Shown here one piece after another: positions 59,994 to 63,455 of a stretch of DNA of 64,000 bases. Positions within the stretch are counted from its first letter, which is position 1. Each line of letters starts with the position of its first letter. This DNA comes from Bacteroidetes bacterium GWF2_35_48 (GTDB taxonomy: Bacteria > Bacteroidota > Bacteroidia > Bacteroidales > GWF2-35-48), in assembly GCA_001769125.1 (NCBI GenBank), contig MEOG01000081.1:1-64000 (forward strand). The letters are read 5' to 3'. The notes below the pieces were generated by a model that saw only the letters and a list, made by a program, of their open reading frames with translations, was not told where the DNA came from and ran no database searches. The translations under genes and the position numbers were made by a program.

Positions 59994-62900
59994 ATGCAAA
60001 AGAAATTTTTAATTTTGGTAACACTTGTTTTCGCCAGTTCTATATATGGCTTTTATAGCACTTTTACAATGCTTTTTAATAACAGAACGCCCTATGTTAT
60101 CGAATGCAGGGGAGTGAGGCTTGATTCAAGTAAGGTAATCGCAATTAGCAATTACGAAAGACAGAGTGCCGATACTCTTTTTTTTCATTTTGAACAAAGC
60201 AAAGTTATTATGCCACACACTTTGGCTTATCTGTTTTTTGATAAAGCAAAAAATGAGTTTGTGCTCAAAAATAATGTATGTGTTTTTAATCCTAAGAATA
60301 CTAACCCTGATAATTATTTTTTACCATTTGCCAAAACCTTAAACGATGGGAAATTCAGCAAAGGAAAATACTTTGGTTCTTCGGAAACAATAAGCCAGAA
60401 AATACTACTGGAACAAGGTATTAAATATAATAGTGGCGTTGGTACACGTGAAAACAGAGTAAGCATCGAACTTTATAAATTTAATAATCAGGTATTTTTA
60501 AAAACAAAAGATGATGGGATATGCAGTAAATATCTTATACAACGTAATACAAATAATGTTTTTGATATAATACTCAATCAGCCAACCAACACTAAAAACC
60601 CAAACGTATTTGCATTTGACAATACAACTTCTTCGTCAGCAAGATTTAGTCTAGAAATTAATGCGGGTACGTTTGATGTTGCTTATAAAATTAAAGATAA
60701 TAATTGCGCTGTAATACAAGAAGGAAAAGGTAGTAATCCATTTTTTATTGTAGGAGGATATTTGTTTTCTATTAATCCGAAATACACAAAAATATTTTCG
60801 GTAATTTATCTTTTGTTTTTTGTTTGTATAATTTGCTTTCAAATTTATTTTTTAAACCTTTATACAAATACAGGCTCTCCTGTTGTTCGGTCTTTATTCA
60901 GCATTCGGGTTTTACTTAACTGTATCGTGTTTTTAGCAACACCTCTGTTTCTTACTTCTTACTATATTGCAGCTGGCAGGTCGTACTATTTATTTTTAGT
61001 GTTGCTTTTAAATGTTTCCTTCTTCATCTCTAAGCGTGTATTACATAAAATAGATTTGAGAAAACATAATGGTTTTATTACAAAAACAATTTGGTTGTGT
61101 GTTTTATTAGCACCAATTTTCATGAGATTGTTCACACAAAACGAAAGCTTGTTTGGCCTTATTCCGGTACTTCATGTTCAAAAAATTATTATCCTGTTTA
61201 TGATTTTTGTAACTCAGGATAATTTTTTTAATTCATATAGATACAGATATTGGTTGCGGATAGCATTCATTATTGGTTACACTTTTGCCATATCATTTAT
61301 TACATCAGATATTGGTTCATTCATTTATACTGCTTTGGCATTTTTATTAGTAGAACTGGTGAGAAAAACCATAAAACAAAGAACTGTCATTATGTGCTGC
61401 ATTTGCGTATTTTCATTGATTTATATAACCTATAAAATAGCGCCTGAAACTTTTAGCGATAGAAAGGCATATCGATTAATAGCGCCTTATTCAAGCCCTG
61501 AATCAAAAAATTTATCTTATGCAAATCAGGCTGACAGAGAATCTTATAGCACATTGTTGCTAAATTTAAAAAATATAGTGGACTTCAATACGCCCAATTT
61601 TAATGACTTAGTCATACCGGCAAATATGCGTACTACATGCTTTAGTGACTTTGCCTTTCACTGGAGCCTATCATTTGGCGGGCTGGCCTTTTTCATAATG
61701 TTTCTTACAGTTACGCTTTTTTTAATATCTGATCTGATTTTATTGCTTTATTGCTCAATTCGTGAATTTCGTATTGGCGAAAATAAAAGCTTTGCATTTC
61801 CACATACCAGAGAAGCAGAACTAGTTCGGTTTTTGTTGGCATTTACTATTATTTCTTTTATTTATCCTGTTGCTTCAAATACATTACTTATTCCTCTAAC
61901 TGGTCAAAGTATTCCTTGTTTAAGCATCAGTAATATTGAAATAATTTTTTTGATTTTATTATTAATATCTTTAAGTAGTATCTTTTCAAATGAAAAGTAT
62001 ATTAACACTAATGCAAAAACGAAATATTATTATGCTGATGCAAAAATCAGTATGAAATATGCTCTTTTTAGTGTTGTCTTGTTACTTGTAATTGCTTTTG
62101 TTTTAAGAGTTATTTCATTAGGTTTTATAGATAATTCATTAGTATGGAAAAAGCATGTTTCTGATGAAAGCATTAAACTCAGGGAGCAAACGCCTTCGTG
62201 TGAAGATAAAAATAGTTTAGTACAATTTGCGAAAAAAATAATTGGTGATGATGATTTAACAAGCATTGATAAAAAGAAGAAGCCAGTGCTTAAAAACTTT
62301 GCCAGCCTGTATTATTCCAATAAGCCATATACGCAAACTGTTTATGAATCTAGTGTTTTTACGAATAGCGTCAGCAAACTTTTAACCCAAATGACAATGG
62401 ATTCAATTTTTAATACTAAATCAAAATTAATTAGTGGAACTCTGCATCCTTTTGGCTCTGTTTATGCTTTCAGTCAATGTGTAAATAATAAAAAAATAAT
62501 TAGTGTTACAAACGATTACTACAAATGTATTCCTTTTGATGCGCAAACAATAAATGCAGATTTAACGGCTGAATGTGCAAGAGAATTGGAATTGCATTTA
62601 TCATTAATGGGGAATCCTGTCAATATTGGCTCTATTATGATTGTGGAAAATAAAACTGGTAAAGTTGTTTCTAATAGTTCATATCCATTAATTTCAAATA
62701 TCAATAGTAATGAGGTATATTACTTCATCGGTTCATTAAAGAAATTATTAATTGCTTATGCTGCGTTAAAGATAGATATATCATATAAGAACAAGATTTA
62801 TGGCAATAAATCATTTCAGGAATTTTTACAATATTCTGATGATTACTATTCAGCAGCCTTATTAAAAGATCTTTTACAAAACAATAAAGAAAAATTGAAT

Positions 62901-63455
62901 GAAGTATTAACCAATGATTTTGACTTACCTCTTTATTCGTTAACAGATGATGCTTATTTAGAAACAATGCCAACAAATAAAGATTTTAAAAAAGAATTGA
63001 ATCGTAACAATACAATTTACAGGCAAGCTATAGGACAGCAGAGACCATTTAAATTTTCAGAAGTAATGAAGTGGTATTCAAGGGTGGCAAGCGGGTTAAA
63101 AATAGAATTAAACTATTTAAAAGAAAATAAATCGTACGAATTGCTATCATTAAACGAAGAAGAAAGAACATTTTTGTTGCAAAGTTTAAATAAAGTTTTA
63201 TATGGAACCGCTAGTGGTGTTCGCATTGCACTAAAAAAAAATAAAATTAAAACTGACAACTTAATTTGCAAAACTGGTACAGCAGAAAAGTCAAACAAAA
63301 AAGGGAATTCGGCTTCATCATTTATTCTATCTAATGATGTTTACTCAATAGGTATAATGCTTAAAGGAAATATTCCTGAAAATAATAGAAAGCTAGCAGC
63401 AAAAGATTTGTTTATTTCATTGATTCCAATTTTAACGAAATACAAAATAATGTAA
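59994..63455 (+). CDS. SEDS (FtsW/RodA-like) membrane region fused to a PBP-like transpeptidase domain
   Basis: Multi-TM core with FSDFAFHWSLSFGGLAFF and NTLLIPLTGQSIPCLSISNIEIIFLILLL; C-terminal SLKK (SxxK), LICKTGTAEKSNKKGNSASSFI (KTG). Confidence 0.7.
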   Translation: MQKKFLILVTLVFASSIYGFYSTFTMLFNNRTPYVIECRGVRLDSSKVIAISNYERQSADTLFFHFEQSKVIMPHTLAYLFFDKAKNEFVLKNNVCVFNPKNTNPDNYFLPFAKTLNDGKFSKGKYFGSSETISQKILLEQGIKYNSGVGTRENRVSIELYKFNNQVFLKTKDDGICSKYLIQRNTNNVFDIILNQPTNTKNPNVFAFDNTTSSSARFSLEINAGTFDVAYKIKDNNCAVIQEGKGSNPFFIVGGYLFSINPKYTKIFSVIYLLFFVCIICFQIYFLNLYTNTGSPVVRSLFSIRVLLNCIVFLATPLFLTSYYIAAGRSYYLFLVLLLNVSFFISKRVLHKIDLRKHNGFITKTIWLCVLLAPIFMRLFTQNESLFGLIPVLHVQKIIILFMIFVTQDNFFNSYRYRYWLRIAFIIGYTFAISFITSDIGSFIYTALAFLLVELVRKTIKQRTVIMCCICVFSLIYITYKIAPETFSDRKAYRLIAPYSSPESKNLSYANQADRESYSTLLLNLKNIVDFNTPNFNDLVIPANMRTTCFSDFAFHWSLSFGGLAFFIMFLTVTLFLISDLILLLYCSIREFRIGENKSFAFPHTREAELVRFLLAFTIISFIYPVASNTLLIPLTGQSIPCLSISNIEIIFLILLLISLSSIFSNEKYINTNAKTKYYYADAKISMKYALFSVVLLLVIAFVLRVISLGFIDNSLVWKKHVSDESIKLREQTPSCEDKNSLVQFAKKIIGDDDLTSIDKKKKPVLKNFASLYYSNKPYTQTVYESSVFTNSVSKLLTQMTMDSIFNTKSKLISGTLHPFGSVYAFSQCVNNKKIISVTNDYYKCIPFDAQTINADLTAECARELELHLSLMGNPVNIGSIMIVENKTGKVVSNSSYPLISNINSNEVYYFIGSLKKLLIAYAALKIDISYKNKIYGNKSFQEFLQYSDDYYSAALLKDLLQNNKEKLNEVLTNDFDLPLYSLTDDAYLETMPTNKDFKKELNRNNTIYRQAIGQQRPFKFSEVMKWYSRVASGLKIELNYLKENKSYELLSLNEEERTFLLQSLNKVLYGTASGVRIALKKNKIKTDNLICKTGTAEKSNKKGNSASSFILSNDVYSIGIMLKGNIPENNRKLAAKDLFISLIPILTKYKIM

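Follow-up and report, generated by a model that had tools for sequence, protein, structure and literature searches.

A divergent SEDS–class B PBP fusion encoded beside a DUF4407 gene, a probable accessory wall synthase

The gene at 59994–63455 (+) of the window, by which we mean the whole stretch of 64,000 nucleotides analysed here, encodes a single chain of 1153 amino acids with about 13 predicted transmembrane (TM) helices, which was read as a SEDS–bPBP fusion from the list of open reading frames, its fused relatives and profile comparisons. The protein is probably an accessory peptidoglycan polymerase-crosslinker, in which a divergent SEDS protein and a class B PBP are joined in one chain and regulated by partner proteins; our confidence comes mostly from the identity of the parts, and we infer the regulation. 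It has the look of a mobile device for wall building, and not that of a housekeeping enzyme, and what is new here is a divergent, mobile variant of SEDS–PBP fusions that have already been recorded.

Reading frame, layout and relatives

The frame runs uninterrupted from ATG to stop, and the opposite strand has no comparable frame (the longest ORF among those listed is 83 aa). The original prediction had described a 1153-aa frame with landmarks of both protein types; this frame is intact, and all of the quoted motifs are found in it. SDFAFHWSLSFGG starts at S551, LLIPLTGQSIPCLS has P634–S639 as its core, SLKK corresponds to S914–K917, and KTGTAEK starts at K1093. Searches of Pfam, NCBIfam and PDB sequences gave no meaningful match to the protein, and the Pfam models for SEDS and transpeptidase domains remained unmatched even at E 1, so the reading of the fusion rests on remote homology.

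Three full-length fused relatives were found besides the window protein. The closest (L023; 1156 aa, 60% identity) is encoded in a genome of another class (G1014), the second (L002; 1153 aa, 51% identity) in a Flavobacteriaceae MAG, and the most divergent (L007; 1229 aa, 27% identity) in a genome of the same order as the window genome (G020). Two more genomes (G395 and G920) have fragments of the fusion at the ends of contigs; in G920, contig C72 ends with a DUF4407 gene, a small ORF and the start of the fusion, and another begins with the fusion’s end. Because the relatives are also single fused chains, an assembly artefact or a chance fusion of frames is ruled out. Occurrence is sporadic among the genomes surveyed: the tallies are 2 among 394 genomes for the order, 3 among 395 for the class, 4 among 398 for the phylum, and 2 among 99 for the order to which G1014 belongs, where each tally includes its centre genome (G000 or G1014) and the genome sets overlap in part. 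Relatives were not found in IMG/VR or in the plasmid and phage collections.

The hydropathy profile can be read as a pattern of 1 + 1 + 10 + 1 TM helices, with helix boundaries taken by hand from overlapping windows (all coordinates in this paragraph are on the + strand). An N-terminal TM helix (aa 4–24) and a periplasmic domain of approximately 237 residues (aa 25–261), which matches no Pfam or NCBIfam family, occupy 60003–60776, and a connecting TM helix (aa 262–292; 60777–60869) would return the chain to the cytoplasm ahead of the SEDS-like core. The core (aa 295–668; 60876–61997) has 10 predicted TM helices, and is delimited by hhalign comparison with the SEDS profiles described below and by topology. 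Alignment to these profiles places a large periplasmic loop 4 at 61446–61649, ending with S551–D552, and the PLTGQS motif of loop 5, aligned to PVTGQT of FtsW, at 61893–61910. As in RodA, the hydropathy pattern makes the SD439 site periplasmic, together with loop 4, which contains D552, and loop 5, which contains PLTGQS. Next come a bPBP-type TM helix (aa 682–718; 62037–62147), recognised by hydropathy and by an alignment with canonical fusions that spans the SEDS–PBP junction, and a pedestal-like region (aa 719–850; 62148–62543), assigned on position only and within the same alignment. The transpeptidase domain (aa ~851–1125; 62544–63368) was delimited by hhalign to an FtsI/PBP2 profile, and alignment locates its SxxK motif (S914-L-K-K917; 62733–62744), in which S914 is the predicted acylated serine, an SDD (S948–D950; 62835–62843) at the SxN position, and a KTG (K1093–G1095; 63270–63278).

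Remote homology of the two halves

The transpeptidase half gives the stronger signal. A profile of the four full-length members aligned with one made from 29 FtsI/PBP2 proteins of the same phylum at 97.1% probability over 275 columns (E 7.7e-11; hhalign percentages here and below are probabilities, and the E-values are for single pairs of profiles and are not database-wide). In this alignment GSLKK falls on the serine motif GSxxK, SDD on SSN, and KTG on KTG. The L007 relative also has a weak direct match to PF00905 (E 0.002), which is under the cut-off. The reading of the C-terminal domain as a transpeptidase of the class B PBP type is thus supported by remote homology. At the SxN position, three of the four members have SDD and the fourth, the most distant one, has SRN.

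For the membrane core, comparison with a profile of 31 canonical SEDS sequences, picked by BLASTP, gave E 7.6e-5 over 207 columns, and enlarging that profile with the SEDS portions from nine canonical-type fusions gave 87.9%, with E 3.2e-6 over 217 columns. In both alignments SDFAF falls on YSDFIF of FtsW and PLTGQSIP on PVTGQTLP, and D552 is aligned with the Asp that is catalytic in SEDS proteins. This loop-4 Asp is D262 in RodA, where it is the catalytic residue (PMC10449877), and D297 in FtsW, where its catalytic role is putative (PMC8765783). The scores exceed those obtained when columns were permuted inside 10-column blocks, which preserves the hydropathy profile: the combined profile scored 53.3, and none of its 400 block shuffles exceeded 37.7, while canonical SEDS alone scored 40.4, and 300 shuffles with two block sizes reached at most 31.5. 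Against the canonical fusions alone, the core gave only a weak match (1.5%), and the signal arises once canonical SEDS sequences are included; it is absent for L007, the most divergent member, when this is compared by itself.

The core therefore resembles SEDS proteins in profile and in the order of conserved motifs, and likewise in its ten predicted TM helices and in a large periplasmic loop 4 that ends with the residue aligned to the catalytic Asp; it does not reach the gathering score of PF01098, a model that the three relatives also fail to match and to which the window protein has no match even at E 1. Taken together, these comparisons support a divergent SEDS core by remote homology. The S(Y/M)GG motif that follows PLTGQSIP is lost, and the fusion reads SISN there; in E. 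coli FtsW, Tyr379 and Gly380 are required, and the Y379A and G380A variants are non-functional (PMC8765783). AlphaFold2 models of the full-length protein and of the core, predicted from a two-sequence alignment (the window protein and L002), had pLDDT values of 33 and 38, respectively, too low for the models to be used as evidence of the fold.

The SD, PLTGQS, SxxK and KTG motifs are unchanged in all four full-length members despite identities of 27–60%, which suggests that catalysis is still selected. Catalysis in either half could nevertheless be altered or absent, because SYGG is lost and the SxN position reads SDD, and we treat both activities of the fusion as putative.

Partner genes, neighbourhood and proposed function

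The fusion gene is preceded by two candidate partners. The first (58172–59731, +) encodes a DUF4407 membrane protein whose C-terminal part is a transglutaminase-like domain, as identified by Pfam, and the second is an 82-aa ORF (59742–59990, +) between the DUF4407 gene and the fusion, nominated by its position and by weak similarity (20–32%) to small ORFs that occupy the same position in the relatives. The order DUF4407, small ORF, fusion recurs in L002, L023 and L007. The DUF4407 neighbour and the accessory-island setting named in the original prediction are both borne out and conserved. The transglutaminase-like domain is missing from the DUF4407 protein of L007, and its C-H-D residues are conserved wherever the domain occurs. 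By the positive-inside rule this domain is predicted to be cytoplasmic, and a DUF4407 loop whose cysteines are kept by four of five members is predicted to be periplasmic. In the papers surveyed that mention DUF4407, the opening of the abstract describes no functional work on it.

Further genes may belong to the module. Directly downstream of the fusion, the first 180 codons of a 197-aa ORF lie within the window (63460–64000, +, from the ORF list), and a distant homologue of this ORF sits just upstream of the module in L002. A receiver-domain protein (52033–53853, +) is a possible extra component: its homologue precedes the module in L023 (BLASTP E 2e-49), where the upstream genes also have in common with the window part of a 1798-aa protein.

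Several other features of the upstream region were recorded. ABC_sub_bind transporter genes, directly followed by the gene for the 1798-aa protein, which matches SPASM and, weakly, PAS, occupy 39257–47882, and the gene at 49369–51948 encodes a receiver domain fused to a HerA/TraD-type ATPase (PADLOC mad8 match, E 2e-18). Receiver-domain genes form a run near this position (also 52033 and 55019). Between them and the DUF4407 gene, at 56969–58039 (-), is a 356-aa protein with repeated ‘GFIN..G.....F....F.EGLA’ units, which are WG-repeat-like by eye.

The cross-class similarity of the fusion is best explained by horizontal transfer, because the fusion proteins of the window and of G1014 are 60% identical across classes, whereas the FtsW and RodA proteins of the G1014 family and the window genome are only 34–35% and 33–34% identical, respectively. 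Replacement of the housekeeping synthases is ruled out, since the canonical proteins are encoded elsewhere in the window genome, FtsW with FtsI on one contig and RodA with PBP2 on a second. As these ordinary FtsW/FtsI and RodA/PBP2 pairs are kept, the fusion is additional to them.

By analogy with RodA–PBP2, the membrane core would polymerise lipid II through D552, and the periplasmic transpeptidase would crosslink the strand via an acyl-enzyme on S914. A single chain would fix the stoichiometry of polymerase and crosslinker. The extra N-terminal periplasmic domain may sense or bind something in the envelope, and the DUF4407 protein (mostly with its transglutaminase-like domain) and the small protein would be expected to switch the synthase on or off. 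The module would then be a self-contained, mobile and conditional wall synthase working beside the host’s FtsW/FtsI and RodA/PBP2, and the peptidoglycan-remodelling device of the original prediction stays an inference.

Other readings differ from this one either in the chemistry or in the purpose of the protein. The core might come from a different polytopic family, for example the O-antigen polymerases or ligases (Wzy/WaaL), and be joined to a transpeptidase. SEDS and Wzy_C families are themselves similar (95.7% in a control comparison), so a weak SEDS signal alone would be indecisive, but the Wzy profile aligned over only 32 columns at 8%, versus 217 columns at 88% for SEDS with the catalytic Asp in register, and the number of helices and the positions of the loops fit SEDS. 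The profile comparison thus disfavours an O-antigen polymerase, and we regard a core of this kind as very improbable. It is less far-fetched, although still unlikely, that the protein is a catalytically weak sensor, whose halves have ceased to build wall and instead bind lipid II or a beta-lactam and signal to the DUF4407-transglutaminase partner. Such a role would suit the loss of SYGG, the replacement of SxN by SDD, the additional N-terminal periplasmic domain and the predicted cytoplasmic enzymatic domain of the partner, but it fits poorly with the invariance of the SxxK, KTG, SD and PLTGQS motifs.

A role in envelope defence is plausible and compatible with the polymerase-crosslinker reading, as it concerns purpose and not chemistry. 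In its general form, which we put forward tentatively and consider somewhat doubtful, the fusion would be the wall-acting effector or the guarded bait of a mobile anti-phage or conflict module, the DUF4407-transglutaminase protein would act as its sensor and switch, and peptidoglycan would be altered or repaired upon attack by a phage or toxin. Defence genes are present at three of the four fusion loci. Downstream of the window’s fusion, at approximately 67–88 kb of contig C81 (L005/L006), there are genes for a VirE/PriCT2-like protein, the type I restriction-modification proteins HsdM, HsdS and HsdR, IetA and IetS, and an MkoA-like protein; a DNA methyltransferase gene follows the fusion in L023, and two PDC-S31 genes and a JukA-like gene are near that of L002. 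The sporadic presence and apparently horizontal spread of the fusion also favour such a role. Against it, the association is one of neighbourhood only and involves three loci, the single neighbour checked in L007 is not a defence gene, and PADLOC matched neither the fusion nor the DUF4407 protein, which places both outside the catalogued defence systems. A more specific version is a speculation that we judge improbable: the three genes would form a mobile module for envelope defence, and the DUF4407-transglutaminase protein would restrain the SEDS–bPBP chain until a phage or toxin attacks the envelope, whereupon the chain would build or alter peptidoglycan; if true, it would be a defence system with a cell-wall synthase as its effector.

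Relation to known SEDS–PBP systems

Core wall synthesis is the task of SEDS–bPBP pairs, which are also targets of antibiotics. The accessory polymerase-crosslinker proposed here has in common with RodA–PBP2 and FtsW–FtsI the order of the SEDS landmarks, the position of the catalytic Asp and the SxxK and KTG motifs of bPBP transpeptidases. The canonical systems differ in consisting of two proteins, in having SYGG and SxN intact, and in lacking the N-terminal periplasmic domain.

The original prediction held that a SEDS–bPBP fusion would be exceptional. Both halves are upheld by remote homology, but the fusion is not new in itself: PMC10449877 records single-ORF SEDS–PBP fusions, for which it cites the Rhodococcus RHA1 genome paper, and a canonical-type family exists in the same phylum. 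The fusions of PMC10449877 are likened to the present one by description and not by sequence, as SEDS and PBP in one polypeptide; that paper’s passage on them mentions neither DUF4407 nor mobile islands.

Within one class of the same phylum, 8 of the 250 genomes searched encode canonical-type fusions (1112–1384 aa). Those examined (G784; loci L085–L093) have the same order of parts as the window protein, with an N-terminal TM helix and periplasmic region followed by the SEDS part, the bPBP TM helix and the transpeptidase. The alignment of the window family with these fusions runs through the SEDS–PBP junction (478 columns, 94.7%, E 6.1e-8 for this profile pair), and because it crosses the junction, the two groups likely descend from a common fusion. 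They differ in detectability: the G784 fusion (1221 aa), the one scanned, clears the Pfam cut-offs of both families by a wide margin and has CarboxypepD_reg in its N-terminal region, while the window protein goes undetected by Pfam. A fused version that evades the family models, and that occurs across classes together with its partners and close to defence genes, suggests that even the synthesis of the wall can become a mobile and conditional trait, and the fusion offers a natural single-chain construct in which to study the coupling of the two activities.

The G784 neighbourhood is the only one of the canonical type that was read; no DUF4407 gene was seen there, and the fusion is adjoined by FHA genes. 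Two FHA-like genes flank it (L084:5290–6315 and 10106–10972), one of which encodes FhaA_N and FHA domains while the other is FHA-like by eye, an arrangement that we take to be reminiscent of actinobacterial FhaA–RodA–PbpA clusters.
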